From positions 62,001 to 126,000 of the forward strand of contig CAILEP010000007.1 of assembly GCA_903833275.1 (NCBI GenBank): a stretch of DNA of 64,000 nucleotides, written 5' to 3'. The position numbers and the translations under genes were made by a program. Positions 6,171 to 22,150 of this stretch are shown piece after piece (within the stretch, counting starts at the first letter, position 1; every line of letters begins with the position of its first letter). The notes under the pieces are model-generated. The model was not told the DNA's origin and ran no database searches. It was given only the letters and a program-made list of their open reading frames with translations. The DNA is from an uncultured Bdellovibrionales bacterium. Its GTDB lineage: Bacteria > Bdellovibrionota > Bdellovibrionia > Bdellovibrionales > UBA1609.

Positions 6171-7499
6171 ATGCGAATATTTATACTCGGGTTCTTTCTT
6201 TTACTAACCTCCGCTCAAGCCTTTGCAAACAAGGTCAACGGTCGAATTGAGCTCGGTGGTTATACGGCCACAGAAAGGTTCGTCGACACAACGGGTGGCT
6301 CGCAAGAAAACGATTTTCAGCTATTTACTTTTCGTTCATTTTTAAGTGTTAGCGAAATCGGCGACTCGAAATATGAATTTAATTCTGACGTTCGCGATAA
6401 ATACGATTTCTTTGATACTCTTAATAAAGCGCAACTGACGCTTGACCCGTCCAATACATTTCAAGTGCAACAGCTCAATATTCGCAAACCCATTTCGGGT
6501 GATTCTGGCATGGGGTACACCGTTGGCCGTACCGCGGTGCCAGAAGCTGGGGGCGCGTTTAACGATGGTTTGCTCGTGAAATATCACACCCAATCTTACA
6601 TTGATTATGCTGCGTTTGGAGGGTTGAACCCCAAGATCCCAGGGCAGGCCCATCTTGATTTTAATTCTAAAGCAACTACTTACGGAGTGTTTTTATCTTA
6701 TCAACCAAAAAATGTAGAGTGGAACAAAAGCTTTTACCTGACCCACGCCCTCGTAAGTCAGGCTGATGATGGCCATACAGATCGGCAATATCTTTTTCAC
6801 AATTTGAGTTATCAATGGCGCAATAACAGTCGTCTTATCACCTTTCTTTATCTCGATTTTATACCTCGAACGTATATTCAAGAGGGCAGTGTTTTTTGGC
6901 AGCAAGAGCATTCGGACTACTTTTACAGCAAGCTTTCGCTGCTCGGGGTTGATTCTATTGGTTATGTTCACATTCAGGGCAAGCTTGATAAGTTAGACCC
7001 GTCGCCTTACAAACAGGCCTCGCTTGCGTTTGATTATCGCTTTAACCCGCTCGTCACTTGGGAGCTCGCGACACTTTACGGCCATCGTAATTTCGACGGG
7101 CTTTCTAAAACCGAGTATGCGCTCTCGATGGCCAACCAGAGAAGTTTTGGCCCCAATTGGGCCACCAATTTCACTATTGGGCATCGTAATAATTTTGTCA
7201 GCAATGATGAGTTTGGTCGCGTGGGTATTGGGTATTACTCTCGAGCTTGGGAGACCTTTGCGAATATTGAAGCCGGCATTGAAAAATACACTCAGGTCAG
7301 TACAACTCACCATCCTCTTGTAACTGAGCTTGGCATTACTCATTTTTGGAGCAAGCAACTCTACCTAACAGGTTCTTTCGAGAGAGATGCGAACGAAGAG
7401 GTTACGATTCTTTCGGTATTCTTTAAGCTCGGTTATCGTTACGGCAATCGCGAGATACCACCGCTGCGGGATGGTTCGCCAGTGAAGGGGTCGCTCTGA
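6171..7499 (+). CDS. Outer-membrane beta-barrel protein linked to a multihaem cytochrome
   Basis: 442 residues with a Sec signal peptide (about 1-20, cleavage after AFA). The mature part is rich in alternating aromatic and polar residues (for example TYGVFLSYQP, YFYSKLSLL, ASLAFDYRF, QLYLTGSFERD), typical of transmembrane beta-strands. It has no haem motif. The stop overlaps the start of the 30-haem cytochrome gene (TGATG), so the two are translationally coupled. Pairing of a barrel with a multihaem cytochrome is the hallmark of porin-cytochrome conduits such as MtrAB and PcaAB types. I do not recognise it as MtrB or PioB by sequence, and it is shorter than MtrB (about 690 residues). An outer-membrane sheath for the cytochrome is inference. 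Confidence 0.7.
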   Translation: MRIFILGFFLLLTSAQAFANKVNGRIELGGYTATERFVDTTGGSQENDFQLFTFRSFLSVSEIGDSKYEFNSDVRDKYDFFDTLNKAQLTLDPSNTFQVQQLNIRKPISGDSGMGYTVGRTAVPEAGGAFNDGLLVKYHTQSYIDYAAFGGLNPKIPGQAHLDFNSKATTYGVFLSYQPKNVEWNKSFYLTHALVSQADDGHTDRQYLFHNLSYQWRNNSRLITFLYLDFIPRTYIQEGSVFWQQEHSDYFYSKLSLLGVDSIGYVHIQGKLDKLDPSPYKQASLAFDYRFNPLVTWELATLYGHRNFDGLSKTEYALSMANQRSFGPNWATNFTIGHRNNFVSNDEFGRVGIGYYSRAWETFANIEAGIEKYTQVSTTHHPLVTELGITHFWSKQLYLTGSFERDANEEVTILSVFFKLGYRYGNREIPPLRDGSPVKGSL

Positions 7500-10015
7500 T
7501 GAAAATGCAACGTTGGTTGATGTTTTTGTTATGTGCGGTCGTGGTCGGCGCACCGGGCAGTTTGGTTGTCGCGAAAAACGAAGGTGTGCTTAACAAATTA
7601 TTGGCCCCCGGGCCGTTGATCGAGGGTCACGCCGACCTCGAGGGCTCTGATTGCTTAAAGTGCCATGACGCTGGTAAGGGCGTGCCCGACAGCAAGTGTT
7701 TGGCTTGCCATAAAGAAATTCGCCCGTCTGTAGAGAACAAGCAGGGGTTTCACGGCTTGAACTCAAAAACCTGTCGTGAATGTCATGCTGACCATAAAGG
7801 TCGTGAGTTCAATACGGTGGCGGTTGATCAAAAGACTTTCGATCATGAAAAATTAACGGGCTACACTCTCGAGGGCAAGCACTCGAAATTAAAGTGTGAA
7901 GAATGTCACAAAGAAACCCGTAAAGAAAAACCAATTCGCCAAAATGAAATTCGATTTTTTGGTCGCCAATCGAGCTGTGTGGCCTGTCATAGAAAAGATG
8001 ACGTGCACTTTTTCAAAGACAAATGGGCGAAGAAAGATTGCGCCAGCTGTCACTCGCCCGCGTCTTGGAAAGAAAAAAACCATTTCGACCATTTAAAAGA
8101 AACCAAATACCCTCTGAAGGGTAAGCATCTTAAATTGAAGTGTGCCGAGTGCCATATCGTTAAGGGCACCAAGACCAAGTCAATTTACCAGTGGCCTTCG
8201 TTTAAGACCAAAGAATGCCTTGAGTGCCATGAAAGCCCACATAAAGGCCGTTTGGCTGAGCGTTTTCAAGGCGGTCGTTGTGATAAGTGCCACAACGAAA
8301 CCGAGTGGAAGTTACCGAAGTTTGATCACGCTGTTACGAAGTACCCGCTACATGGCAAGCATGCGCAGCTCAAGTGTGAGGGCTGCCATAAGCAAGATGC
8401 GAAGGTGATCGCACAGCCCGATCGAAAGAACTGGAAATGGTTAGGCCTCAAGTCACAATGCTTATCTTGCCACAAAGACTATCATCGCTTTGGCGCGCAT
8501 GAGATGAAGCGCTTTGCGCCACTCAACTCGTGTACGCCCTGTCACACCGACGTGAAGTGGGATGATATTAAGCACTTTGACCACAACATGAACACGCGAT
8601 TTATGGTTGACGGCAAGCATGACGAATTGAAATGCGAAGAGTGCCATTTGACCAAAGACGCCAAGGCAAAGCCAGTGGTCTGGCTCAAGGTTGGCAACTA
8701 CAATTGGCCGTCGCTTGAAAAGAAGACGTGCGAGAACTGCCATAAAAACCCCCATGTCGGTAAGTTTAGCGAAAAGATTTTGGCCAAAAAGTGCACGTCA
8801 TGTCACATCACTCGGGCTTGGGTGATTATGAAAAACGGCAAAGACTTCGATCACTCTAAGACCCGTTTTGCTTTGACCGGGGCTCATCGCAAGGCGAGCT
8901 GTGCCGAATGTCATTCGCGTGATAAAAAAGAAATCTACAAATTTAAAAATTTTGAACAGAAGTTTTGTATTGATTGCCACGACAGCGTGCACACGAAAAT
9001 GTTTAGCGCCAAATTCAATGCGGCCTCGTGCGCCGAATGTCATGGCACTGATTCGTTCGCCAAGCGCCCGCCCTTTAATCACGACATAACGAGAATGCCG
9101 TTAAAGGGTGCGCACGCAAAAGTAGACTGCGAGCAATGTCATACCCCGAGCAGCTTGAAACTTTTGGTCTTAGCACCAAGCGTAAACAAGAAACAGTACC
9201 CCAAGGGCAAAACGTTTGTGCACGACAAGTTTCAATTCAGTGGTTACAAACAGGGCGAATGCTCGACCTGTCACTCGGACGTTCACAAGGGTCAAGTTGG
9301 GTCTGATTGCCTGAAGTGTCATACTGAAACCGAGTGGAAGTTAAAGGTTTTTGAGCATGACAAGAAAACCAAATACGAATTGCGTGATAAACATAAAGAT
9401 GTTTCGTGCAGCAAGTGTCATTTGCCTGTCAAAGGTGAAACTGTAAAAGAATTCAAGCGCATTGTGCAGGTCATTCGCTATGCACCGATTTCGTCTGAGT
9501 GTAGCGCTTGTCATAAAGATGCGCATAAAGGTAACTTCGGCCCGAGCTGCAAAGAATGTCACTCAGAACGGGGCTGGAAGGTCACGCGCGACTTTCACAA
9601 GAGTTTCACGCTGACCGGCATTCACTTTTCTCTCGATTGTGCCGAGTGCCATCGCGATGGCCGTAAACTCGCCGGTCTTTCGCAGCAGTGTCTCGCTTGT
9701 CATCAAAAAGATGACGTGCACTATGGCACTTTGCCGCGTTGTCAGGATTGCCATCGCCAACAGTTTTGGGAGATTGCGAGCTTTAAACATTCGCTTACGA
9801 TGTTCCCGCTCAGAGGGGCTCATCGTACGCTCGATTGCGCCGTCTGCCACGCGGGTGGGGTTTCGGCGGTCGGGGCCGGGGTTTATCAGGGGCTGTCGAC
9901 AACTTGTCTCGTCTGCCACCAAGCTGACTTTCAATTTGGCCATGTTGCGCCGGGCGGGCACGGGGCCGGCGGGCCTGTTTGCACCGATTGCCATCATAAT
10001 CAGTTTAGATTTTAG
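7499..10015 (+). CDS. 30-haem periplasmic cytochrome c
   Basis: 838 residues with a signal peptide (about 1-26, ending VVAKN) and 30 CXXCH motifs by my count. The protein is built of a repeat in which FDH-x-x-T-x-(Y/F)-x-L-x-G-x-H-x-x-L-x-C-x-x-CH is followed by paired CXXCH motifs and HKG or WK. Histidines in the FDH and GKH positions are likely second axial ligands. The mature protein is Lys- and His-rich, unlike the Thr/Ala-rich 27-haem lipoprotein, so the two are not recent duplicates. It lacks a lipobox and so should be periplasmic. Its coupling to the upstream barrel gene and to a downstream TlpA-like thioredoxin suggests a periplasm-spanning electron wire that needs active haem attachment. 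It might be a wire to the outside or a store of electrons. Confidence 0.87.
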   Translation: MKMQRWLMFLLCAVVVGAPGSLVVAKNEGVLNKLLAPGPLIEGHADLEGSDCLKCHDAGKGVPDSKCLACHKEIRPSVENKQGFHGLNSKTCRECHADHKGREFNTVAVDQKTFDHEKLTGYTLEGKHSKLKCEECHKETRKEKPIRQNEIRFFGRQSSCVACHRKDDVHFFKDKWAKKDCASCHSPASWKEKNHFDHLKETKYPLKGKHLKLKCAECHIVKGTKTKSIYQWPSFKTKECLECHESPHKGRLAERFQGGRCDKCHNETEWKLPKFDHAVTKYPLHGKHAQLKCEGCHKQDAKVIAQPDRKNWKWLGLKSQCLSCHKDYHRFGAHEMKRFAPLNSCTPCHTDVKWDDIKHFDHNMNTRFMVDGKHDELKCEECHLTKDAKAKPVVWLKVGNYNWPSLEKKTCENCHKNPHVGKFSEKILAKKCTSCHITRAWVIMKNGKDFDHSKTRFALTGAHRKASCAECHSRDKKEIYKFKNFEQKFCIDCHDSVHTKMFSAKFNAASCAECHGTDSFAKRPPFNHDITRMPLKGAHAKVDCEQCHTPSSLKLLVLAPSVNKKQYPKGKTFVHDKFQFSGYKQGECSTCHSDVHKGQVGSDCLKCHTETEWKLKVFEHDKKTKYELRDKHKDVSCSKCHLPVKGETVKEFKRIVQVIRYAPISSECSACHKDAHKGNFGPSCKECHSERGWKVTRDFHKSFTLTGIHFSLDCAECHRDGRKLAGLSQQCLACHQKDDVHYGTLPRCQDCHRQQFWEIASFKHSLTMFPLRGAHRTLDCAVCHAGGVSAVGAGVYQGLSTTCLVCHQADFQFGHVAPGGHGAGGPVCTDCHHNQFRF

Positions 10016-10037
10016 TTTTATTTGAAAGGCTCATCGC

Positions 10038-10586
10038 TTGAAAATGCCAGCAACCCGTAAAATTATTTTTGCCGTTTTGCTCATCTTGTTTGTTGCCGGT
10101 GCGGCGACGCTTTTTTTGAAATTTAAAAAACGGGCGTCTGAATCATCAAATTTTTCTGTGCGAGTTGAAGATGGCCTGCCGCCACCCAGCTTGCCCGGCC
10201 AGCGGGCGCCATCCTTTGAGGCCATCACCATGGCGGGGCAGAATTATAAATACAACCCAACCCAAAATGAGCGAACCCTGGTGGTGTTTTGGGCTTCTTG
10301 GTGCCCGCCCTGCGCCGAAGAAACACCGGCGCTTATTGATTTTTCGAAACGCCACAGCAATTGGCAAATCGTGGCTGTCTCGAACGATTCGACAGAGAGA
10401 GAAATTCGTGATTTTTTTAAAATATTTCCGAATTTAAGCCAGCCCAATATCGCGATAGTTTGGGATCTCGAAAGACGAGTCTCAAATGCGTATGGGGTAA
10501 CGGGCTTGCCTGAATCTTTTATGATCGATCAAAAAGGTTTATTGATTCAAAAATTTATCGGCCCAGTCGATTGGAAGAAATTCTAA
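10038..10586 (+). CDS. TlpA/ResA-like membrane-anchored thioredoxin
   Basis: 182 residues. An N-terminal membrane anchor (about 8-27) is followed by a periplasmic thioredoxin-like domain with the active-site motif WASWCPPC (Cys89 and Cys92) and the downstream GLPESFMID segment with the cis-proline region. Proteins of this TlpA/ResA/CcmG type reduce the CXXCH cysteines of apocytochromes c before haem attachment. It starts 22 bases after the 30-haem cytochrome gene, so it is probably co-transcribed and dedicated to maturing the multihaem proteins. Start ATG at 10038; a possible alternative in-frame TTG or GTG upstream was not preferred. Confidence 0.83.
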   Translation: MKMPATRKIIFAVLLILFVAGAATLFLKFKKRASESSNFSVRVEDGLPPPSLPGQRAPSFEAITMAGQNYKYNPTQNERTLVVFWASWCPPCAEETPALIDFSKRHSNWQIVAVSNDSTEREIRDFFKIFPNLSQPNIAIVWDLERRVSNAYGVTGLPESFMIDQKGLLIQKFIGPVDWKKF

Positions 10587-11424: not shown

Positions 11425-12693
11425 TCAGGGTCGGTCGCCGTAGCGTTTCACTTTGTATCCAGTGCGTAGGTTGCTTGGGTTTACTGATTTATATTTTACA
11501 ATCAGTTTGCCGCCGGGTTCTGGGTTTAATTCAAGATTTGGGTTCAAGTGAACGCTGTTGTTTGTCGGATCGTATTGAAAGCCGATTAGATCAGGCGATG
11601 TTTCGAAGGGGACTTGTTGCATGTTGGGGCAGCCCGGCTGATCTGCTAAGTCAGGCCTTGGGATGCCGTAACAAACCGTAAGCGTGGCGCTCGGGTCGCC
11701 GTTAATCATTGGAACTCCACGAGAAAGTGAAATGACCTTGGGTAGTGTTCGAGTTCGAATCGACTTGCCGATCTCGGCTAATTTGTCGCCAAAAGGTTTA
11801 CATAGCGTCACCACATTTGACTCATCAATCGATGCAAGGTGCAGCAAATCTTCGATTTTTACCGGTGGGCCGCCAGGGTCACGTACGCACGAATTGTCGT
11901 CTGTGGGCACGACGGCGCCGTAGATCATGACCTTCGAGCGGTCACCATTGGCTGAAGCGAGAAGCGAATAGTAGAGCTCGCTAGCGCTACTGCGAGAGTC
12001 GTCCGTTGCATCAGTAACGAAGAAAATTATTTTATATGCGTTTGGGCCAAAGAAAAACCCGCTTTGTCGAGACATTTTGTCCTGAGACAATTTGTCGCCA
12101 CCAGGCAAGTTAAAGGCGGCGGCAACTGGCGAAAACGATTCTTCAAACTCGGGGCCGCCATTCTTTAAAGATTGAACGCCAATATTAATCGTATTTTTTA
12201 AAAGATCTTTGAGGTTAGCGTCGGCCGATGAAATAAAAAATTTATCTTTAACAATCGAATTTGGGCCGTCTTTAACCGGGCGAAATTCGCCGTTCTCAAA
12301 GGTATTCAATTTGTCAGTGCCCGCGAATTTAGTTTTGTAGTTTTGCGAGTCGTAGGTTCTGTGATCGTAAATAGATACAACCGCGAGATGATATTCAATT
12401 GGGTTTTTGCGTGTAAACTCATCGACGAAGCGATTGATGTTGTCGGCCATTTGGGGGTGCAAGAGCATACTGTCAGAGGTGTCGACCACGACAAGTATTT
12501 CAGCTTTCGGGGTTATGTCGAACTGTACACCGCCACCATTTTCAGAAAATTTCTCGTAAGCCGGCTTTGGGTTCATCATATAACTTGTCGGCGGAGAACT
12601 GCAGGCGACTAAAAGCGCAGAGGTCATAGCCACAGGGCCCGCAATTGCCAAAATATTTCTAACGGCATTTACTAGTGTTGCTTGGGTTTTCAT
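11425..12693 (-). CDS. vWA-domain lipoprotein, CglB-like adhesin candidate
   Basis: 422 residues. A lipoprotein signal ends LLVAC with the lipidated Cys at 31. A von Willebrand factor A domain starts at about 64 with a perfect MIDAS motif DTSDS (Asp71, Ser73, Ser75) and a later FFVTDATDD that can supply the MIDAS aspartate. The C-terminal part has several cysteines (NSC, TLC, TVC, PGC) that could form disulfides. Such domains bind a divalent metal and a ligand. It is the last gene of the TolQ/TolR-AgmX operon, with its ATG overlapping the stop of the gene before it by 4 bases. In Myxococcus the gliding adhesin CglB is a vWA lipoprotein of about this size, so a surface adhesin for gliding is a good hypothesis. 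The link is by context and architecture only. Confidence 0.75.
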   Translation of the reverse strand: MKTQATLVNAVRNILAIAGPVAMTSALLVACSSPPTSYMMNPKPAYEKFSENGGGVQFDITPKAEILVVVDTSDSMLLHPQMADNINRFVDEFTRKNPIEYHLAVVSIYDHRTYDSQNYKTKFAGTDKLNTFENGEFRPVKDGPNSIVKDKFFISSADANLKDLLKNTINIGVQSLKNGGPEFEESFSPVAAAFNLPGGDKLSQDKMSRQSGFFFGPNAYKIIFFVTDATDDSRSSASELYYSLLASANGDRSKVMIYGAVVPTDDNSCVRDPGGPPVKIEDLLHLASIDESNVVTLCKPFGDKLAEIGKSIRTRTLPKVISLSRGVPMINGDPSATLTVCYGIPRPDLADQPGCPNMQQVPFETSPDLIGFQYDPTNNSVHLNPNLELNPEPGGKLIVKYKSVNPSNLRTGYKVKRYGDRP

Positions 12694-13499
12694 ATGCTCG
12701 CTCTTTTCTTAGTTATTTTCTTGCCCGAGACATTAAGTGTTGGGCATTCTTTAACCTGAGCTTGATATTTACCAAGTTCATCAAGCCATACTTCGTCATT
12801 AACTTTAAACTTCATAACATCAGAGCCCGAGGCGATCTGCCCCTGTTCGAGGCGGTTGTCATTTTTCTTTGTAAGGCTGATGCGCTCAATCACTTCGGCT
12901 TCAATCACCTGAAGTTTATTGATGACCCCATCAATTTCTTTAAGGCCGTTTCGCCCGTGAAGCTGAAGATTCGGTTTATTAGAGGCCACCTCGGTTTGAA
13001 GGGTGTCGATTCTCGGTTTCATTTGCGTTTTAAATTTTTCGGTGACTTTGAATACAGTGGCGTAATCGCAGATTTTCAAATTTGTTAGGGCAGCCGTAAA
13101 GTAAATTTCGGGGCTTACGCGGTCTGCAAACATTGGCGCCATTGCTGTTTGCAATGTGGCGATGACGTCAGCATATCGACCTTTGCGGCCGAGGGCCTGA
13201 GCCTTCTCATCAATTGAGGTCAGCCAGAAGGCCGATCTCTCGGGGATCTGGTTGTACTCTTCGAGAGCCGCATCTAATTTTTCGGTTTGAAAATAAATTC
13301 GAGCGCGAGTCAGGTGTAACAGATCAGCGGCAATTTGTTTTTTCGTATCAAGTTCGTTCAAAATGGCGAGAGCCTGTGTCGTTTGATTTTTCAAAGCCAA
13401 CTCGAGGGCGCGATCGAAGGCCCCGGCACTGGCGTTCTGTGCAGATGCGCTTTGAATAATAGCGATGGCTAGAATGCGGCCAAGAGTTTTTAAGATCAT
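12690..13499 (-). CDS. Exported helical repeat protein, GltC-like position
   Basis: 269 residues with a signal peptide (about 1-24). The first half is helical and reads like tetratricopeptide repeats (ALELALKNQTTQALAILNEL, LHLTRARIYFQTEKLDAAL, EYNQIPERSAFWLT). The second half is charged and probably coiled-coil, ending in a Lys/Arg-rich tail. It is therefore likely a periplasmic scaffold protein. It overlaps both neighbours by 4 bases (ATGA). In the myxobacterial glt genes a TPR protein (GltC) sits next to the beta-barrels GltA/GltB and the lipoprotein GltK. The same neighbours are found here, so this is the positional counterpart of GltC, though shorter. Confidence 0.6.
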   Translation of the reverse strand: MILKTLGRILAIAIIQSASAQNASAGAFDRALELALKNQTTQALAILNELDTKKQIAADLLHLTRARIYFQTEKLDAALEEYNQIPERSAFWLTSIDEKAQALGRKGRYADVIATLQTAMAPMFADRVSPEIYFTAALTNLKICDYATVFKVTEKFKTQMKPRIDTLQTEVASNKPNLQLHGRNGLKEIDGVINKLQVIEAEVIERISLTKKNDNRLEQGQIASGSDVMKFKVNDEVWLDELGKYQAQVKECPTLNVSGKKITKKRASI

Positions 13500-14266
13500 A
13501 ACAAGAACCCGATTGAAAGTGTGCTTATGACGGTGTTTTCATTGCGCGGGCCACTATAGATTTGATCTGTGTATGATTGATAGCGAACTTCAAATCGACT
13601 CGTTAGATGTTGCGACATCCAGAGGCCGATGCCGCCGCCGGCCGTCCAGGTGCTGGTGCTGCCCGAGTTGAGTACGATTTGCCCTGCTCCGCCTAACAAG
13701 TAGATATCAAATTGCGCAACGCCAAGGTCGAACATGTTGAGCTTACCGTATATCGGGTAGAAGTTGATTACGCCAACAGTTGAGTTCTTCGGGTAGTCGA
13801 CGGCCGGTTGAGTATAGGGTTGACCCAGAGCCGCCGAATTTGAGGCGTCATTAAATACACGCGTGCCTTCAGAGGTCAGTGAGTTTGTGAAGTTGGCATA
13901 GCGTACGCCGACTGACCAATGTGGGTTGATGTGCAGGTCAAGATTGCCGCCTACAGATTGGGTGTTGATATAGGGGTCGCCGCCGCCGACGAGGCCGTAA
14001 TTGAGGCCCATTTCTAATCGCCAGTGGCGATCCACTTCGCGTTTTTGGACGATCTCAGTTTTGTTGGTTGGGCTCAAATATTTGGCGCGACGAACAAGTT
14101 CGGGGTTGCCGCCCAAAGTGTCGATTTTTGATTTCGGGTTGGCATTTTCGCTCTCGGTGGCTTGTTGTGCGGCCGCGCTTGATAGCGACCACGTCAATAC
14201 AACCGCATAACCGATGTAAAGCAGCGCTTTCGTTAACTGCAATGATCTTACTTTCGGTGAATTCAT
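13496..14266 (-). CDS. Outer-membrane beta-barrel, GltA/GltB-like
   Basis: 256 residues with a signal-anchor or signal peptide (about 12-33, ending SSAAAQQ). The mature domain has regular beta-hairpin features (RLEMGLNYGLVGGG, GNLDLHINPHWSVGVRYANF, GGIGLWMSQHLTSRFEVRYQ) and ends in an aromatic/leucine terminal strand (STLSIGFLL), as in 8-stranded OmpA-like barrels. It should sit in the outer membrane. Its size fits the GltA and GltB barrels of the Myxococcus gliding complex. It overlaps the lipoprotein gene upstream and the repeat-protein gene downstream by 4 bases each. Barrel assignment is firm; the gliding role is inferred from the operon. Confidence 0.72.
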   Translation of the reverse strand: MNSPKVRSLQLTKALLYIGYAVVLTWSLSSAAAQQATESENANPKSKIDTLGGNPELVRRAKYLSPTNKTEIVQKREVDRHWRLEMGLNYGLVGGGDPYINTQSVGGNLDLHINPHWSVGVRYANFTNSLTSEGTRVFNDASNSAALGQPYTQPAVDYPKNSTVGVINFYPIYGKLNMFDLGVAQFDIYLLGGAGQIVLNSGSTSTWTAGGGIGLWMSQHLTSRFEVRYQSYTDQIYSGPRNENTVISTLSIGFLL

Positions 14267-15768
14267 GGCTTCGACCCTCCGCTGGCTTTCGTGGCTGCCG
14301 CAGTTGCCTTAATCGGCGAACAATTTGCGGCCTTGCCAGTTAAGCTAACTTTAAAATTTAAATCTTTTTGTTGTTTCGAAGTACCCAAGGTCGATTCTGT
14401 GCTGATAATAAGATTTGTTGTGCCTTCTTTCGCGTCACAGTTGCTGGCCACTTGTACGTGGCAACTTTTTACGCAAGCGCCGGTTTTACAACCCATGATC
14501 TCACCAATGGCGGCTCCACCCGCTTCGCAGGTGAGGCTGAGCTCGACGCCGTCTTGCGCTAATTTCAACGTGGCGTTCGATTTGGTGGCCTCTGCAGTTT
14601 TGCCTTGATCATCGGTATCTTTACCGGCCTTGGTCGGATCACTGATTCGAATTGAGTTCACTTTAACTTCGCCGCGAGCACCATCGGCTTTAATAAAAAA
14701 CTGCTCGCTAATTTGACTGCCAATTTTTGCGCTGGCCGTACCGGCCCCGCCAACAAACTTGGGCTCGCCGGCCTTATCTGTCATATTTACTTTGATAGCG
14801 ATGAGGCGATGTTCGTCCGAAGTTTTTTGACTGTATTCATTGTAGGCCGAAATATAAAACAGCGCTTCGCCGGCAGTGAGCTCGCCTTTTTGAAACTTAG
14901 CCTTAAGGGCTGGAGTACGATCGATTTGCTTCTGAAGTTCGTCAGCAAACGTTCGGGCCTTGAAGTTGATTACATACTCATAGCGAGCGCGGCCTTGGGC
15001 GTCAGCCCCGAGTGATCGGGTCTGAGTGGCATGAAGGTCGGTTGCCGAATAGCCATCCATTTGCGCGAGTTCGAGCGACGGCTCTTGGGGCCCACGCTCA
15101 AAGTTAATTTTCAGATCTTGGGCTTTGTGCAAACCTTTTGCCGCTGCTACAAACTGAATTTTAACGTCTTGGTCGGCGTTAACTTCTGACCCGGGTATTA
15201 ATTTAATCGGATTGGTTTCGCTTTTTTCGATAATGGGCTGGTCTTGCTCTTTATATAACGTAACCGTCAAATCTTTTTTAGCGTAGTAGCCGGCGAGATT
15301 GGCTTTTGAAACAGCCGAGCTTGACGGGTCGAGAACGAAACTCAGTTGTAAATCAAGTGGTCGATTATTTTCAGATGCAGAAAGAAGATTAGTTGCAGGT
15401 GCCCAGCGAAGCGCGAATGAATCGGGGCCAACGCGCGTGAAGGTTGCACCAGCCGGCCCCTTTGTCATAATCACATTGTAGTGCACGCTCGAGTTGTCGT
15501 TAAAAAACAAACGGACCTTGAAGTTAACAGCTGTATTTTCACCTTGGTAAAATACCAGGCTGTCTTGATTGTCTATGCTGAAAAGCTGAGTTTGAGTAGT
15601 CTGATCGGCAGATTGGCGTTGGTAGGCGGGTACTGAATTTTTGAGCGACTCATAGTTTTGCAAAGGGTCTTGGCTTCGAGAGCCGCAGCCGATTGAAAAT
15701 AGAGTGGCTGTTGCAAGGGTGCCTGAGAGCAGCGCGTTCGCAAACAGTGTGTTAAATTTGGTCTTCAT
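14263..15768 (-). CDS. Large lipoprotein, GltK-like position
   Basis: 501 residues. The lipoprotein signal ends FSIGC with the lipidated Cys near residue 28. The rest is beta-rich and soluble with a run of repeated Ig-like or cadherin-like patterns (SVHYNVIMTKGPAGATF, DSFALRWAPATNLLS) and a Cys cluster near 425-460 (CEAGG, CKTGACVKSCHV, SNCDAKEG). The last domain resembles a small disulfide-stabilised module. I do not recognise the family. It lies between the AgmX-like gene and the beta-barrel gene, the place of the lipoprotein GltK in the myxobacterial gene order. An outer-membrane-attached partner of the barrel is likely. Start ATG at 15768 has a clear GAGGAG ribosome-binding site. Confidence 0.6.
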   Translation of the reverse strand: MKTKFNTLFANALLSGTLATATLFSIGCGSRSQDPLQNYESLKNSVPAYQRQSADQTTQTQLFSIDNQDSLVFYQGENTAVNFKVRLFFNDNSSVHYNVIMTKGPAGATFTRVGPDSFALRWAPATNLLSASENNRPLDLQLSFVLDPSSSAVSKANLAGYYAKKDLTVTLYKEQDQPIIEKSETNPIKLIPGSEVNADQDVKIQFVAAAKGLHKAQDLKINFERGPQEPSLELAQMDGYSATDLHATQTRSLGADAQGRARYEYVINFKARTFADELQKQIDRTPALKAKFQKGELTAGEALFYISAYNEYSQKTSDEHRLIAIKVNMTDKAGEPKFVGGAGTASAKIGSQISEQFFIKADGARGEVKVNSIRISDPTKAGKDTDDQGKTAEATKSNATLKLAQDGVELSLTCEAGGAAIGEIMGCKTGACVKSCHVQVASNCDAKEGTTNLIISTESTLGTSKQQKDLNFKVSLTGKAANCSPIKATAAATKASGGSKP

Positions 15769-15789
15769 AAATAACTCCTCAAAAAATTC

Positions 15790-17133
15790 TTAGCCTTCAG
15801 ACAATCTTTTTAAAACAAATGGATAAGTCACTCGTACGCTTACGTTGCCAGTGGGTTGCGGAAACTTCCAACCGCGCAATTTACTGACAATGCAGCTTTC
15901 AACTCGTTGCGAACCCACTGAAGTATTGGCCACTTTTGCCGATTCAACAGCACCGCGTGAGCCGATCACAAACTTTACCGCAACACGGCCTGAAAGATCT
16001 GGATTGGCCTGTAAGCCTTGTTCGTAGCAGTAGGTCACCTGGCCAATGTTTCGTTGGATCACAGTATTAATCTGATCGCGATCAAGACCGCCTTCGATCA
16101 ATGATTCTTCGCCGAGCGGTTCAAAGTAGGCGCCGGCAGAACCGGCCATGTGCATGGTGCCGTAACCTGGGCGACCGCCACCGAGCCCGCTCGAAGCCGT
16201 GCCCCCGTAGCCTTGAAGAGAATTGCCCTGGCCGTTGCCGATGCCAGTGGCGATCAAGCCTTTGCCGAGCAACCCACGAGTGAAGCCACCGCGCATCGCA
16301 GGGCCGCCGTAACCGATGCCAGGGCCGTCGTGTTTGGCGTTAACGTTTAGCCCGCCCGAGCCGTGATATTGAGTGCCCATGCCGCCACCAAGCACACCGA
16401 GCGCGCCTGAATTCTGCATGCTCGTGCCAGGGCGACTGCTGTTTCCGTGCCCTTTGGCCGAAGTTGAGGTTGCGACGACATCGCGGCGAATCTTGACGTG
16501 TTTGCTTGTCACTTTTGCAGTGACGGTTTTGTTTTTTAAATTTTGCTGATTGATTTTGTGCTCAGCCATATCAACGACTTGGTGATTGGCTTTGGCTTCT
16601 TCGATGTGCTGCTCGAAAACTTGCACAGTGACGGCCTGAGGGGCCTTCTCAAAGAAACGATGCATAACCCAAGCTGAAATCAATACGAGGGCCAGCGCGG
16701 CGACATGGCCGAGCGAAGAGTAACCGATGAACTGTACAAATTTACTATTGTCTTCTTTTGTTGCGGTCACGTCTTTCTTAAGTAATGCGGCATCGGTGTT
16801 CTCAATCATGCGCAAGCGACCAAAGGCCCCGATCGAAATAGGTTTTATTCTAAGGTTAGAGCGCTCGATGACCGTGATCAGCTGAAAAGCGTCGCGTTTA
16901 GCGGCCGGGGTCGCTTCATTCTGCTCAGCAACCAATTTCATTTCATTCTCAAAAGCGATCAAGTTATCAACAAATTCGATTCTCTGACGATCAGCGCGAA
17001 CAACCGCAAAAAGTTTATTGGTGCGCCATTTGATGTAGCGAATAGTCTCACCATTCGAATTTTCAAATACGATATTTTCGTTTTTCAAACCGGTTTTCAT
17101 TTTGCTAACCTCTACTTCTGTGCTCGGTCTCAT
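15790..17133 (-). CDS. AgmX/PglI-type TonB-like protein
   Basis: 447 residues. A cytoplasmic N-terminal domain (about 1-135) precedes one membrane helix (about 144-163, HVAALALVLISAWVMH), a periplasmic linker, a Gly-rich stretch (about 235-345) and a C-terminal TonB-like domain (about 355-445, QVTYCYEQGLQANPDLSGRV ... WKFPQPTGNVSVRVTYPF). The C-terminal module matches what is annotated as the AgmX/PglI C-terminal domain in myxobacterial gliding proteins. It should link inner-membrane motor movement to the outer membrane. The ATG at 17133 overlaps the preceding stop (ATGA) but has no Shine-Dalgarno sequence. A second ATG at 17100 is preceded by AGAGGT at good distance, and could be the main start. 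Confidence 0.82.
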   Translation of the reverse strand: MRPSTEVEVSKMKTGLKNENIVFENSNGETIRYIKWRTNKLFAVVRADRQRIEFVDNLIAFENEMKLVAEQNEATPAAKRDAFQLITVIERSNLRIKPISIGAFGRLRMIENTDAALLKKDVTATKEDNSKFVQFIGYSSLGHVAALALVLISAWVMHRFFEKAPQAVTVQVFEQHIEEAKANHQVVDMAEHKINQQNLKNKTVTAKVTSKHVKIRRDVVATSTSAKGHGNSSRPGTSMQNSGALGVLGGGMGTQYHGSGGLNVNAKHDGPGIGYGGPAMRGGFTRGLLGKGLIATGIGNGQGNSLQGYGGTASSGLGGGRPGYGTMHMAGSAGAYFEPLGEESLIEGGLDRDQINTVIQRNIGQVTYCYEQGLQANPDLSGRVAVKFVIGSRGAVESAKVANTSVGSQRVESCIVSKLRGWKFPQPTGNVSVRVTYPFVLKRLSEG

Positions 17134-17417
17134 GGGTTCAGCCGACTGTTTTTAAGCCGGTCCTTATAATCGGTGCGATAATCCAATAGATTCGAAAGCT
17201 CTTTTTCGTTTTCAACAGTCACGAGCCCCTCATTAGCGCTCTGATATTGCCCGCGCACTGTCATGCCATCAAATTTGAAGTCAGTGCCAACGTCGGTGGC
17301 GGTCGCTGCATTGGCTGCGGTGATAGGCTTTTTCGTTCGCTTAGGTTGAGAGCCGGCATAAGACACAGATGCCACGCCGATCGCCAAAATAATTGAAAGA
17401 GCTTTTAATGCGATCAT
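17130..17417 (-). CDS. Small exported protein of the gliding-type operon
   Basis: 95 residues with a signal peptide (about 1-22, ending SYAGS). The mature part is short and charged (GTDFKFDGMTVRGQYQSANE ... LLDYRTDYKDRL) with no domain I recognise. It overlaps the upstream TPR gene and the downstream AgmX-like gene by 4 bases each, so it is translated as part of the operon and is real. Its place next to AgmX/TPR genes resembles that of small periplasmic Glt proteins such as GltF, but I see no sequence basis for that name. Confidence 0.65.
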   Translation of the reverse strand: MIALKALSIILAIGVASVSYAGSQPKRTKKPITAANAATATDVGTDFKFDGMTVRGQYQSANEGLVTVENEKELSNLLDYRTDYKDRLKNSRLNP

Positions 17418-20400
17418 CTGGCCACCTTTTTCTGGGTCGAGAGCTTATCGTTCAAGTTCTCAAGTCGGGCTTCAAGAAATACCACCATCGGGACTTCATC
17501 GCGACGAGCCTCAATCTTCTTCAGAGTCTCAATTTTCTCAGTATCAAAAGGCTGCGATCGAACGGCAAGGCGCGCGCGATTGGCTTCATCGCGCGAAGGT
17601 GTTTTGCGGGCCTGCTCGAGAGCGCGTTCGATTTCACTCGCCTGGCCTCGTGGAGCAAAGCGCGAAAGTAAATTCAAGTCAGATATCAAAAGTTGACGTG
17701 CGCCACCGAATTCGGTCTGAGAAAGCTCCATCAACTTAGCGACGGCACCAGACTGAGCCCAGAGAGAGGCCAATTTCTGCTTGGCGGTCTCAGCGGTGGC
17801 CTTAAAGGGTGCCGCGCGCTCATGTAAGAGTTGGGCATAGGCTCGGCGCTGGCTTTTCTTTAGATTTCGGGGCAATGGCAATGCGAGAAGGTCATTGTAC
17901 AGACGGCTATATTGTTCGGCGACGCGATTGAGCGCAATAATTTGAAGAGTAAAGTCATTGCGGGCCATAGCGAAATTGGCGCGTTTCTCCGCCGTTTTTA
18001 ACAAGGCGATTTTAATCTTTAGTGTTCTTTGTATCCCGCTATCACTTCGAGTGTTTAGGTGGGTTTGGCTGAGCATTTTATCAAGTTTTTGATCTGAGTC
18101 GAGGGCCAGGTAACGTTGAATAGTCGGGTAAGAGCTGCTTCGGGCGATACTGCGATCGTTTGAATACTTCTTAAGTTCATCGATGCGGCGAGATTTGGCA
18201 AAAGCCTCAATCACGCTCGCGCCATAGATCTCAGGTGACTTTTTAAGTTGAGCGCGAAAAGTGCCGAGCATCTGCCACGGGTTCTTCGCTTCATGAATCA
18301 TTTTGGCATAAACGCCAGCGGCTTGGGCCTGATTGTGGGTACTGCGCAAAAAGTTTTGATAGTAAATGCGGGCATCGTGACCAGATAACTCAGCGAGCAA
18401 AGCGAATTTTAAATAGCGAGCATCGATGCTGAGGTCAGAAAAGTGAATTTGTTTAGCGACCCGAAACGCATTTGAAAAATCGAGGCGCGCCTCAAAGGCC
18501 CAGAGTTGAGCGCCGTTGGCGAAATCTTTATCGGTAGGTGATAATTTTTTAATGCTGAGCATATTCTGGGCGGCCGTCAAAACGGTATTAATGTCCGATA
18601 TCTTTTGCGCCATCAGAATTTGGTTTTTGTAGATCGAAGCGCGTTCTTGTTCGGTCGCGCCGGCAAGAGGGGCGGCGCCTAACTGGCTCAGAGCTGCCGC
18701 GACCTCAGAATTGTTGCTGATATTTTTGCTATATCTTTGGATTGAAGCATTGACCGTGGCTTTTCTAGCAACTGCCAAATAATTGTTCTTTTTCTGCGGA
18801 AAGTTCGAAGCGTATATCTTCGACTGACTTTCGACATGGGCGGTGTCGCCGATATTGGCCCACGAGTCGAGGGCGAGGTCGGCAGCTTGAAGTCTTAAAG
18901 AAAGATCACGGCATTTTGATTCGTTAGCGATTCGGTCAAATTCGGCTGCGGCCTCGGCAAATCGTTTTTGATCATACTTAAGATGTGCAATCTGATATCG
19001 AACTTGAAATTGCTTTTCGCCATCGGGTCGTAAGCTTAGATAGTGCGCATAGGCGCTGGTCATAATGGCTTTGTCAGTCGACTCTTCGGCGCACTCGATC
19101 TCAGCTAGTAGCGAACCCTCTAGGGTTTTTGCCAAGAAAATACGTTTGGCGTCAGTGATATCATGAGAATTAAGTTGTCGCGCACTTTCATCTGCCGATT
19201 GGGCATAGAATTTTGCAGCGGCTTCGCGATGCTGTCTGCGACGCGCAATGTGGCCAGCCCATTGAACCATCTCAACGTCGCCTGAGTTGTACTGCGCATA
19301 TATTTGCAGGGCTTCGTAAAGGCCTTCGCTTGGGTTCTTTTTTTCTTTTTTAATCCAAGTGTGAGCATAAGCTCGCGAGCGAGCGCGAAGATCGTCGCAA
19401 TTTTCTTGCTTCTTACAATCAGCTTGTGCGAGGCCTATATAGAATTTCTTGTAAAGGTCGAGTGATTGGCGATAGAGATTTTGATCCCAAATGGTCTGTG
19501 CGGTTCTAATTTGAATCTCGAGAGACTCATCACCGGCTACCGTGCCCAGTGCCGTGTAACGTTGCCATACAAGCAGCGCGCCCGCCTTGTTGCCCAAACG
19601 GTCGGCCTCTTGGCCTAAGTAGAACAAATTCGAGCGGCGTTCAGATTCGGGGCTCAGTGAGATTAACTGTTCGATTGAACTATTGTCGATACCATCACGT
19701 GCAATAAAAGTGGCGAGGTCACGTGCCATGTCTTTTTGAAATGAAGAATCGGCGGCGGCAGAGTTGGCCCGAAGTGTTCGAAGGGCCGCCAAGACGATAG
19801 ATTTAGCTTTGCGAGCATTGCCATTGTTAAATTGGCACCACGAAAGTCGATATTGAGCCAATGTGGGGTTAGAGATTTCAAAGTTCAGTGCCTGCTCATA
19901 ATTTTTGCGAGCTTCTGGATAGTTGCCGCCACGAAAGTAAAGTTCGCCAAGGCCAGCAAAGCTTTCGCCGCGCAAAGAGCCTTTGGTGCTCGGTGCCGCC
20001 AGCGTGGCTTTAAAAAGCCCTTCGGCTTTTTTAGTGTCGCCTTGAAGTGAATAGAGGTGAGTTACCTGCATTAATGCATGCTCTTTCTGTTGCCCACTCG
20101 TGTGGCTAAGAGCGCTCATATAGTAATCAATGGCCGTCGTGCGATCAAGTTTTGCGCCGTCACAGGTTTTGCAGCTCGTGGCTTCTTCGTCGATGGTTTT
20201 GAGGCGCGCGCGATCAGAATAGAGATCGGCAAGGCGCACACGAAGTGCCATTTCGCCGGCTTGGCCTTTTAGCCCGGGCAGTGCCGATTCGAGTTTTTTG
20301 ATAACCATATTGTGGGTCGCGACGTCCATTTTGAGCGGAGCAGAATCTTCAGATTCAGAACCGCCGGCCAGGGCAACCGCCGAGGTTAGCATCGGTGCAA

Positions 20401-20443
20401 GAATCGAAATTAGAAAAAGGTTTCGACCTACACGGTTTTGCAT
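17414..20443 (-). CDS. 1009-residue periplasmic TPR protein
   Basis: A signal peptide (about 1-27) is followed by helical repeats over nearly the whole length, with classic TPR spacing such as AIDYYMSALSHTSGQQKEHA, GLGELYFRGGNYPEARKNYEQAL and LAQYRLSWCQFNNGNARKA. The sequence has CKTC near residue 95 and few other cysteines. Long TPR proteins act as scaffolds. In the Agl-Glt gliding complex of Myxococcus, several TPR proteins (GltD, GltE, GltI) fill the periplasm between motor and outer membrane. This gene directly follows the second TolR-like gene (no gap) and overlaps the small exported gene. TPR content is clear; the exact counterpart is not. Confidence 0.8.
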   Translation of the reverse strand: MQNRVGRNLFLISILAPMLTSAVALAGGSESEDSAPLKMDVATHNMVIKKLESALPGLKGQAGEMALRVRLADLYSDRARLKTIDEEATSCKTCDGAKLDRTTAIDYYMSALSHTSGQQKEHALMQVTHLYSLQGDTKKAEGLFKATLAAPSTKGSLRGESFAGLGELYFRGGNYPEARKNYEQALNFEISNPTLAQYRLSWCQFNNGNARKAKSIVLAALRTLRANSAAADSSFQKDMARDLATFIARDGIDNSSIEQLISLSPESERRSNLFYLGQEADRLGNKAGALLVWQRYTALGTVAGDESLEIQIRTAQTIWDQNLYRQSLDLYKKFYIGLAQADCKKQENCDDLRARSRAYAHTWIKKEKKNPSEGLYEALQIYAQYNSGDVEMVQWAGHIARRRQHREAAAKFYAQSADESARQLNSHDITDAKRIFLAKTLEGSLLAEIECAEESTDKAIMTSAYAHYLSLRPDGEKQFQVRYQIAHLKYDQKRFAEAAAEFDRIANESKCRDLSLRLQAADLALDSWANIGDTAHVESQSKIYASNFPQKKNNYLAVARKATVNASIQRYSKNISNNSEVAAALSQLGAAPLAGATEQERASIYKNQILMAQKISDINTVLTAAQNMLSIKKLSPTDKDFANGAQLWAFEARLDFSNAFRVAKQIHFSDLSIDARYLKFALLAELSGHDARIYYQNFLRSTHNQAQAAGVYAKMIHEAKNPWQMLGTFRAQLKKSPEIYGASVIEAFAKSRRIDELKKYSNDRSIARSSSYPTIQRYLALDSDQKLDKMLSQTHLNTRSDSGIQRTLKIKIALLKTAEKRANFAMARNDFTLQIIALNRVAEQYSRLYNDLLALPLPRNLKKSQRRAYAQLLHERAAPFKATAETAKQKLASLWAQSGAVAKLMELSQTEFGGARQLLISDLNLLSRFAPRGQASEIERALEQARKTPSRDEANRARLAVRSQPFDTEKIETLKKIEARRDEVPMVVFLEARLENLNDKLSTQKKVAR

Positions 20444-20935
20444 TTAGGTTTCATCCTCTTGAAGAACGGCAAAGCGAACTTGCTCAAAGCCAGCTTGCAA
20501 TCCTGAAAGTACGGCTGGGTTGATTTGTGAGAAGCTCGCTTTTCGATCAGCTTGAATCACAACATAAGGAGTATGAGTGCGATCTTTCTCGGCCTTCAAT
20601 GTTTCAGCCAGATGATCAATGGCAATTGCGGTCTTACCAATAAAGTAGTGACCATTTTGAACCATAACCACGAGACCACCTTCAAGTACGGTGCTGTGGT
20701 AAGCGTGGGGCAATGACATATTCTTTGGTACATCCATGCTCTCGCCACCAAATGAAGTCGCTAGCAAGAGGTACGCGAGAATTGTTGTAAAGCAATCAAC
20801 AAGAGAGGTGAGAGATATCGTCGTAGCGATTTCTTTTTTACCGTTTGAAGACTGCGCGGGTCGCATGACGCCCAAGCCACCGAGGCTTGATTCGATTTGC
20901 GTTTCGTTCATAATTTGCATCGTCTTAAGGCTCAT
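20444..20935 (-). CDS. ExbD/TolR-like motor subunit with the conserved Asp
   Basis: 163 residues. A cytoplasmic N-terminal tail of about 40 residues precedes one membrane helix (about 41-61). It contains LTSLVDCFTTILAYLLL, in which Asp47 corresponds to the proton-path aspartate of ExbD, TolR and MotB. A small periplasmic domain follows (YVVIQADRKASFSQINPAVL) of the TolR/ExbD fold. It is the second of two TolR-like genes after a TolQ-like gene, the arrangement of aglR-aglQ-aglS. It probably forms the stator with the other two and powers the TPR/TonB-like parts with proton motive force. Confidence 0.85.
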   Translation of the reverse strand: MSLKTMQIMNETQIESSLGGLGVMRPAQSSNGKKEIATTISLTSLVDCFTTILAYLLLATSFGGESMDVPKNMSLPHAYHSTVLEGGLVVMVQNGHYFIGKTAIAIDHLAETLKAEKDRTHTPYVVIQADRKASFSQINPAVLSGLQAGFEQVRFAVLQEDET

Positions 20936-20981
20936 AATTTAATCTCCCTCGCGGGTTCAAGGTTCATTCCACAAAATTCAA

Positions 20982-21431
20982 TTACAGTGGCGCGATACCG
21001 ACCTGCGAGAAGTTCTCTTTTTTCAATTTATCCATGACAAAAATAATATCTTCGTATGAAGAATCAGCCGCCGGCAGCACCATTGCCATTTTCAGGCCCG
21101 GCATTTTCGACTTAATGAGGTGCGCGTACTTTTCGATAGCAATGAGATTGCTGTGGGCAATTTTAAAATCGGGCATACCTTTTGTTTCTAGGTTTTTGCC
21201 GTCGTTGACCACTAAACGAACCGAGCCATCATTGTCAAACTTCGCCCAGAGCGACATCGGGTTCTTGGCGGTTTCGGCACCATCGGTGCCGAAAGCCTGA
21301 TCTGTATTGAAAGTACCGATGCGAGTCCAGACCGAGACCAAAAGCAAGAAGCTGATGCACACGGCGAGAACCGAAATAAACGGTAGGAGGTTCAGTTCAA
21401 ATTCAAGATGTCTTTTTTTAGATCTTGCCAT
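20982..21431 (-). CDS. ExbD/TolR-like subunit lacking the membrane Asp
   Basis: 149 residues. The short cytoplasmic N-terminus and single helix (about 13-34) read ELNLLPFISVLAVCISFLLL. By alignment with the PLVDV motif of TolR and ExbD, the proton-binding Asp is replaced by Ser, and there is no other Asp in the helix. The periplasmic part (about 60-149) has the usual end (KMAMVLPAADSSYEDIIFVM). A stator with one Asp-bearing and one Asp-less TolR-like subunit is suggested by its neighbour at 20444-20935. The ATG has SD GGAGC upstream and lies 23 bases after the TolQ-like gene. Confidence 0.8.
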   Translation of the reverse strand: MARSKKRHLEFELNLLPFISVLAVCISFLLLVSVWTRIGTFNTDQAFGTDGAETAKNPMSLWAKFDNDGSVRLVVNDGKNLETKGMPDFKIAHSNLIAIEKYAHLIKSKMPGLKMAMVLPAADSSYEDIIFVMDKLKKENFSQVGIAPL

Positions 21432-21454
21432 ACCATTGCTCCTTCAGCGATTTC

Positions 21455-22150
21455 TTAGTTGCCTTTTTGCGGGCGCGAAACTTTCGCGGGTACTGATTCA
21501 AAACTAAAGCTCAACCAATTAAATGCTTTGAATGCGGCTTGGTTCAGATCTTCTTGCAAATGATTCGTTCTGTTCATCAAAATTGCGTACATAACCAGAG
21601 CCGGTATCGCCATAATTAAGCCGTAAGCTGTGGCGTTCATGGCAAGGGCCACACCCTGTGTAAGGTACATTGATTTTTCAGCTGCATTCATGCTTGAAAC
21701 TGACGAGAAAGCCTGAATCAAACCAATGATCGTGCCCAAAAGGCCGAGAAGGGTACCAACGTTACCGAGCATTGAAAGAAAGCCTGTGCGTCTTTCAAGT
21801 TTCGAATTCTCAACAGCTAAGATCTCGTCCATTTTTGCTTGAATCTCGTCGCGACCACCCATGTCTTGCGCAGCTAAAATACCGGCTTGAATAACGGCGG
21901 CAACAGGTTCGTTGCGCGAAAGCGTTCGGGCTTTCGAGAGAGCTAAATCAAGACGACCTTTCTTAATGTCATCTTCAAAATCTTTAGCGATCGCTTTTTG
22001 ATTCTGACCGCGATTGATGAACAGCGCATAAACGCGCTCAGCAATTATCGCAATTGAGAAGATCTGCGCGATCATAATTGCGAACATCCAGATGCCGCCC
22101 TCAGAAAAGGCTTTGGCGATCGATGAGATGATGTTTATGTGTGTTTCCAT
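21455..22150 (-). CDS. TolQ/ExbB/MotA-type proton channel subunit
   Basis: 231 residues with three membrane helices: one near the N-terminus (about 15-38), one with LGNVGTLLGLLGTIIGLIQAF (about 133-153) and one with NATAYGLIMAIPALVMYAIL (about 172-192). These two later segments are the signature of MotA/TolQ/ExbB proteins. It is the first gene of the operon and is followed by two TolR-like genes, the same trio as AglR-AglQ-AglS of the Myxococcus gliding motor. It also fits Tol-Pal or ExbBD function, but no TolA, TolB or Pal gene is nearby. The Shine-Dalgarno AAGGAG is clear before the ATG at 22150. Confidence 0.88.
   Translation of the reverse strand: METHINIISSIAKAFSEGGIWMFAIMIAQIFSIAIIAERVYALFINRGQNQKAIAKDFEDDIKKGRLDLALSKARTLSRNEPVAAVIQAGILAAQDMGGRDEIQAKMDEILAVENSKLERRTGFLSMLGNVGTLLGLLGTIIGLIQAFSSVSSMNAAEKSMYLTQGVALAMNATAYGLIMAIPALVMYAILMNRTNHLQEDLNQAAFKAFNWLSFSFESVPAKVSRPQKGN

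Follow-up and report, generated by a model that had tools for sequence, protein, structure and literature searches.

An Agl/Glt-family motor operon of a Bdellovibrionales bacterium ends in a conserved gene for a candidate vWA adhesin

The gliding machine of Myxococcus (AglRQS, GltA-K, CglB and CglD) uses outer-membrane lipoproteins with a von Willebrand factor A (vWA) domain (PMC4488436). Single loci that join motor and Glt genes have been seen before: Luciano et al. 2011 (PMC3169522) described one, Bd0828-0838 of Bdellovibrio bacteriovorus, four such clusters are known in that species (PMC2797640), and these loci have been termed 'gliding clusters' (PMC12546842). Here we describe a ten-gene operon in a 64,000-nucleotide stretch of DNA (the window) from an uncultured Bdellovibrionales bacterium, which forms part of contig 7 of a 3.08 Mb genome. 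The operon belongs to a known type of cluster, partly known from Bdellovibrio; what is new is that the linkage of its motor genes to a gene for a candidate adhesin is conserved across the phylum. The operon runs from position 22150 to 11425 of the window on the minus strand, and its genes, in order of transcription, are the following.

21455..22150, minus strand: AglR/TolQ-like inner-membrane proton-channel protein, 231 residues, first gene (Pfam MotA_ExbB, 8e-27)
20982..21431, minus strand: AglQ/TolR-like protein 1, 149 residues (Pfam ExbD, 1.4e-9; kept in related operons)
20444..20935, minus strand: AglS/TolR-like protein 2, 163 residues (Pfam ExbD, 2.8e-15)
17414..20443, minus strand: GltD-like periplasmic TPR protein, 1009 residues, with signal peptide (TPR matches)
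17130..17417, minus strand: GltF/CglF-like small exported protein, 95 residues (NCBIfam CglF/GltF, 6.6e-4; 4-bp overlap on each side)
15790..17133, minus strand: GltG-like TonB-type transducer, 447 residues (NCBIfam GltG, 1.4e-40; C-terminal AgmX/PglI domain, myxo_SS_tail, 2e-32)
14263..15768, minus strand: predicted Ig/cadherin-like beta-sandwich lipoprotein, 501 residues (lipobox Cys28; AlphaFold2 model)
13496..14266, minus strand: GltA/GltB-like outer-membrane beta-barrel, 256 residues (TIGR04565 OMP_myx_plus, 4.9e-28)
12690..13499, minus strand: GltC-like TPR protein, short form, 269 residues (NCBIfam GltC, 1.3e-9, partial match)
11425..12693, minus strand: vWA lipoprotein with a metal ion-dependent adhesion site (MIDAS), 422 residues, last gene, candidate adhesin (lipobox, MIDAS residues, fold, conserved last position)

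We searched 60 genomes of the same order, one of which we take to be that of B. bacteriovorus HD100, and defined class I by GltG genes of the window's type. There are 59 such genes, in 44 of the genomes, and for 46 of the 59 a vWA gene lies 2.2-5.1 kb downstream on the same strand. Reading the 13 exceptions altered this first count. Seven run off the end of a contig and were left out (G048:C164 was judged by coordinates), three more do carry the vWA gene (L242, L243 and L247), and L239 holds a diverged candidate (E 0.0012); the apparent absences were thus mostly contig ends, genes missed in listing or genes too diverged, and only two are real. Among the class I operons of the order that can be assessed, 50 of 52 therefore have a terminal vWA gene, with a gene order that is nearly invariant, and in the other orders of the phylum all eight assessable operons end in one or more vWA genes. 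Given this near-invariant order with the vWA gene last, the arrangement is not one of chance. An earlier reading of the window by a model, hereafter the original prediction, had staked itself on the vWA gene co-occurring with the motor genes in relatives, and on this point it passed its own test. In the open-licence literature, supplements left out, we found no statement that class I operons end in a vWA gene.

The description of the operon given in that reading was also sound. All ten open reading frames are in place, with 4-base overlaps at five of the nine junctions (in transcription order +23, +46, 0, -4, -4, +21, -4, -4 and -4 bases), and ten adjacent genes with family matches do join motor, periplasmic, outer-membrane and vWA-lipoprotein layers in one operon. 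The protein it called 'AgmX/TonB-like' is of the TonB type and has the AgmX/PglI C-terminal domain, but it is GltG-like rather than AgmX/GltJ-like (139.5 versus 41.2 bits). The comparison with profiles of AglR/Q/S, GltA-K and CglB that it proposed gave matches for the motor, for GltC, GltD, GltF and GltG and for the barrel, but recognised neither CglB nor GltE, H, I, J or K among the operon proteins. There is one barrel gene, not a GltA and GltB pair, and the window GltG has no Pfam match to an FHA domain. Beyond the vWA gene, a 106-bp gap is followed by a gene for a Crp/Fnr-type regulator (called by sequence inspection). Scans for promoters and terminators were no richer than shuffled sequence (14 versus 12.5; 21 versus 18.3), and the ends of the transcript are therefore not placed.

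The last gene encodes a vWA/MIDAS lipoprotein on several grounds. Its match to Pfam VWA_2 is weak (E 0.009, under the cut-off), and no PDB chain is similar to it by sequence. The lipobox Cys31 and residues D71, S73, S75, E184 and D228 are invariant among 32 relatives; integrin beta-I MIDAS sites show this combination of DxSxS with Glu and Asp. The AlphaFold model (pLDDT 86.4, pTM 0.82) has a vWA domain followed by C-terminal strands, and it resembles integrin I domains most closely in structure (Z 14.0, root-mean-square deviation 3.3 over 181 residues), so that the predicted structure is a clear vWA/integrin I-type fold. The vWA tree repeats a split of the operons into those of entry type and those of exit type (see below), and the vWA gene has therefore travelled with the operon. 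Two orphan vWA genes with no operon near them (L053:13497-14576, plus strand; L047:1990-3105, minus strand) group within the class I vWA clade of exit type and, from this placement, are copies that have moved out of the operon. A Myxococcus lipoprotein of 404 residues (L187:4183-5397, minus strand), encoded next to a lon protease gene and imuAB-like genes, ranks among the closest relatives that the operon vWA proteins have in Myxococcus. In a class I operon of another order, four vWA lipoprotein genes stand in tandem after the GltC-like gene (L310:377-4780, minus strand), and L308 has two, which suggests diversification of the putative adhesin.

The original prediction compared this protein with CglB, and we rejected an identity of the two by sequence. 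Profile A1, made from 32 operon vWA proteins, misses Myxococcus CglB at E<=10, and CglB itself is present in the Myxococcus searched (CglB model match 1.4e-175). Conversely, the CglB model NF033757 (cut-off 200 bits) does not match the window protein at E<=1, touches one of its 32 operon relatives at E 0.23, and has no match in the B. bacteriovorus-like genome G049. A comparison of the vWA family with CglB by hhalign aligned only 67 C-terminal columns, and CglB reaches E 0.002-0.003 at most when far fewer sequences are searched. Our conclusion is that, at the level of sequence, CglB orthology is not detectable for the window vWA protein. The protein may still function as CglB does, and failure to belong to that family does not speak against this.

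Two other vWA families come closer. The window protein matches neither the CglD model NF033765 (cut-off 400 bits) nor the MIDAS adhesin model NF052240 (Bd0875; cut-off 700 bits). Among its 32 class I relatives, however, the CglD model has weak matches to 24 (best E 3.7e-11) and NF052240 weak matches to 29, in both cases far under the cut-off; the class I vWA proteins of HD100 score 29 and 41 bits. L321 scores 731 bits, which marks it as the candidate for Bd0875. By these profile scores, the class I vWA protein is nearer to the vWA domain of CglD and to Bd0875 than to CglB.

For the 501-residue lipoprotein, GltK (CglC) was likewise considered and rejected: we detected no similarity when family A3 was compared by hhalign with the Myxococcus protein at the GltK position (probability 1.4%), and the protein is not detectably GltK. 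It has no library match. Its lipobox Cys28 is invariant and its AlphaFold2 model (pLDDT 75) aligns with protocadherin (VIA Z 10.3, deviation 11.2, 299 residues aligned) and KIT (Z 10.0, deviation 7.7, 298 aligned); the fold comparison gave no row naming a family beyond Ig/cadherin-like sandwiches.

We then asked how the remaining proteins relate to those of Myxococcus, whose loci were obtained through an MglA scan. Profile A6 matches AglR of the Myxococcus M1 locus at 1.6e-60, and M1 proteins of 245 and 162 residues have the published lengths of AglR and AglQ (PMC3169522). Class I family profiles also match Myxococcus GltC (2e-26), GltA (5.6e-13), GltB (3.7e-13) and GltG (9.6e-48); the GltD-like family profile matches the protein at the GltD position in Hyalangium (4e-38) and NfsD (2e-41), and the GltF-like profile matches a Myxococcus open reading frame adjoining GltG (1.4e-5). 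With its TolQ/TolR-type motor linked to GltG-, GltD- and GltC-like proteins, the operon is a member of the Agl/Glt superfamily of envelope motors.

The trees, all of which are unrooted, place it more exactly. In the AglR tree, which was repeated with more taxa, Myxococcus M1 groups with a set of Bdellovibrionota loci that we call class III (support 99/96), and class I stands as a separate clade (100/99). The GltG and GltC trees both divide class I, at 100/100, from Glt, Nfs, class III and a further class II, and it is still a clade when other orders are added (97/93 and 99/97). The window operon falls within it in all three trees and has the ten-gene order with terminal vWA of the Bd0412-0420 type. 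Its AglR is not in the clade of Myxococcus M1, its GltG does not fall in the NfsG clade, and it lacks the N-terminal FHA domain that is found in GltG of Myxococcus and class III and is absent from the window GltG and the HD100 class I proteins. The genome of the window has a class III locus at 249-259 kb of contig 31 (L253). Because the trees set class I apart, and because the FHA domain occurs in class III and not in class I, the window operon is, on this evidence, a paralogue, and the genome's Agl-Glt ortholog is the locus on contig 31. By the same phylogenies, the published 'gliding clusters' are shown to be of three paralogous kinds, of which one alone is the Agl-Glt ortholog. In the class II loci read (L249, L298, L299 and L301) a related vWA gene sits at the opposite end, upstream of AglR; the HD100 copy appears to be Bd1483.

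This result bears directly on the proposal in the original prediction that the operon is the Agl-Glt gliding machine proper, in a compact version that includes a counterpart of CglB. All layers are indeed encoded, GltG, GltC, GltF and the barrel find matches, and the Bdellovibrio literature speaks of gliding clusters (PMC12546842). Against this, the same genome holds the better ortholog, the class III locus with its FHA domain, and CglB is not detected; orthology is largely refuted by the trees, and we regard the proposal as distinctly improbable. Nor is the suggestion that the operon is an ancestral version supported, the trees being unrooted.

A second possibility is that the operon encodes an Nfs-like machine. 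As with Nfs in Myxococcus spores, its motor would act in moving or assembling a polysaccharide coat at the surface, and the vWA lipoprotein would be a coat- or envelope-binding factor and not a traction adhesin. With the class I GltG profile, Nfs-type GltG of Myxococcus gets a better score (3.8e-55) than gliding GltG (7.4e-46), the B. bacteriovorus clusters change with life stage, and Nfs shares the AglRQS motor without itself driving motility (PMC3858216). NfsG, however, groups with GltG (89/87), apart from class I; the Nfs-type operon read (L181, L250, L295) shows no vWA gene, and class I operons include motor genes of their own. We therefore think an Nfs-like function unlikely, if worth bearing in mind. 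Still less probable, and the least so of those considered here, is a TonB/Tol-like transport or secretion system, in which the motor would power uptake or export through a pore in the outer membrane, with the vWA protein as a chaperone or receptor. The ExbB-, ExbD- and TonB-type parts fit such a system, which has been proposed as an option for Bd0412-0420 (PMC2797640), but we found no TonB-dependent receptor or plug domain among the operon proteins, the sole barrel is a small OMP_myx_plus protein, and the presence of GltC, GltD and GltF homologs favours the Glt family.

HD100 carries two class I operons (L302 and L305), at about 388-399 kb and 2272-2283 kb, a class III locus at 777-788 kb, and a class II locus, with the vWA gene upstream of AglR, whose end is at about 1405 kb. 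Their positions and gene counts map them to Bd0412-0420 and Bd2368-2377 (class I), Bd0828-0838 (class III) and Bd1473-1483 (class II), and Bd0412 and Bd2368 would be the class I vWA proteins. We had considered the window operon as an equivalent of Bd0828-0838 and rejected this after reading the HD100 loci, that locus being of class III and without a vWA gene. Published assignments agree with the mapping: Bd0838, called AglS (PMC6561027), matches the last gene of class III; Bd1480, called aglQ (PMC9140294), and Bd1483, a MIDAS lipoprotein (PMC11003981), fit the class II prediction; and the tabulated signal-peptide flags of Bd2368-2377 (Bd2369, 2370, 2373 and 2374) fit the class I gene order (PMC12546842). 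The two class I clusters differ in timing. Bd0412-0420 is raised 4-7 fold at 30 min of predation (PMC2797640) and the proteins of cluster Bd0411-0421 peak at 45 min to 1 h, while those of Bd2368-2377, Bd2368 included (log2 fold change 2.83), peak at exit (PMC12546842). The window GltG groups with the Bd0412-0420 type (98/92).

From these results we favour, with modest confidence, the reading that the operon encodes a complete, envelope-spanning, proton-driven and stage-specific machine of the Agl/Glt/Nfs family, of the class I lineage of Bdellovibrionota, with its own dedicated adhesin. Proton flow through the TolQ/TolR-like motor would move the GltG-like transducer, and the periplasmic proteins resembling GltD, GltF and GltC would carry the force on to the GltA/B-like barrel and the Ig-like lipoprotein. 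The vWA lipoprotein, at the cell surface, would grip its substrate through the metal site, cycles of pull and release would give traction, and use of the machine would be tied to a particular life stage. Its likeliest use is to gain traction, at one life stage, on surfaces derived from prey or on others, ahead of general surface gliding, because the closest operon, Bd0412-0420, peaks at prey entry and its sister, Bd2368-2377, at exit. General gliding over surfaces is more probably the work of the genome's Agl-Glt ortholog on contig 31. A wider proposition, which we offer tentatively and trust slightly less than its denial, is that class I is a third functional branch of the Agl/Glt/Nfs motors, with a private integrin-I-like adhesin for each motor, duplicated for prey entry and exit, and serving motor-driven adhesion on and inside prey, not as a general gliding engine.

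It is important to note that several points weigh against this reading. That the vWA and Ig-like lipoproteins are exposed at the surface is a prediction from lipobox and fold, and the vWA protein could also work in the periplasm, as an assembly factor. Two operons of one genus (L236 and L238) truly lack a vWA gene despite being otherwise complete, and the vWA protein is therefore not absolutely required. Deletion of the related class II vWA gene bd1483 gave no visible predation defect (PMC11003981), and in the open-licence literature we found no class I gene that had been studied by mutation, localisation or motility assay. Our Bd locus tags are assigned by position and gene count and not read from annotation.

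The linkage nominates one adhesin for each motor, and the question of the Bdellovibrio gliding adhesin becomes testable through Bd0412 and Bd2368, as mapped. The existence of three paralogous kinds is also a warning against reading all four B. bacteriovorus clusters as one gliding machine.

Three further observations are recorded here. A class I GltG gene occurs at least once in the genomes of the HD100 genus that were sampled, and no such gene or operon was found in G043, which we take to be B. exovorus JSS. B. exovorus is an epibiotic predator, and the absence fits a role inside prey; from this single case, a link between the two is possible. In the window, a row of plus-strand genes at 6171-10586 encodes a 442-residue beta-barrel-like protein, an 838-residue protein with 30 CxxCH haem motifs and a thioredoxin-like protein, and by gene content looks like a porin-cytochrome electron conduit. 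Finally, a record titled Comamonas sp. KCTC 72670 (L071, BNCN01000011.1) carries a Myxococcus-type MglA (99%) and gltC, and is probably a mislabelled myxobacterium.

Of the described systems, Bd0412-0420 and Bd2368-2377 are the most alike, having the same ten genes in the same order with the vWA gene last; the window differs in a shorter GltC-like protein (269 residues versus 358 or 534) and a longer lipoprotein (501 versus 356 or 386). The MIDAS adhesin Bd0875, Bd1483 and CglD share the DxSxS vWA domain of class I but sit in a different part of the vWA tree. Tyson et al. describe Bd0875 and Bd1483 as having a lipobox and a small beta-rich domain, formed by both termini, into which the MIDAS domain is inserted (PMC11003981), a layout similar to that of the window protein. 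Class III of the Bd0828-0838 type resembles the window operon in joining the layers in one locus (PMC3169522), but in Bdellovibrio has the order barrel-barrel-GltC-GltD-...-GltF-GltG-AglR-AglQ-AglS, with an FHA domain and no vWA gene. The Nfs sporulation machine of Myxococcus has GltC/D/F/G-like and barrel proteins, as class I does, but the Nfs loci read have no linked motor or vWA gene, and Nfs groups with Glt in the trees. The Agl-Glt machine itself has a motor, GltC, GltD, GltF, GltG and barrel homologous to those of class I, and both systems include a vWA lipoprotein; class I is nonetheless a separate clade in three trees, has a GltG without FHA and one barrel, and keeps in a single operon the genes that Myxococcus has at several loci. 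The window operon is thus a cousin of the Myxococcus gliding machine.

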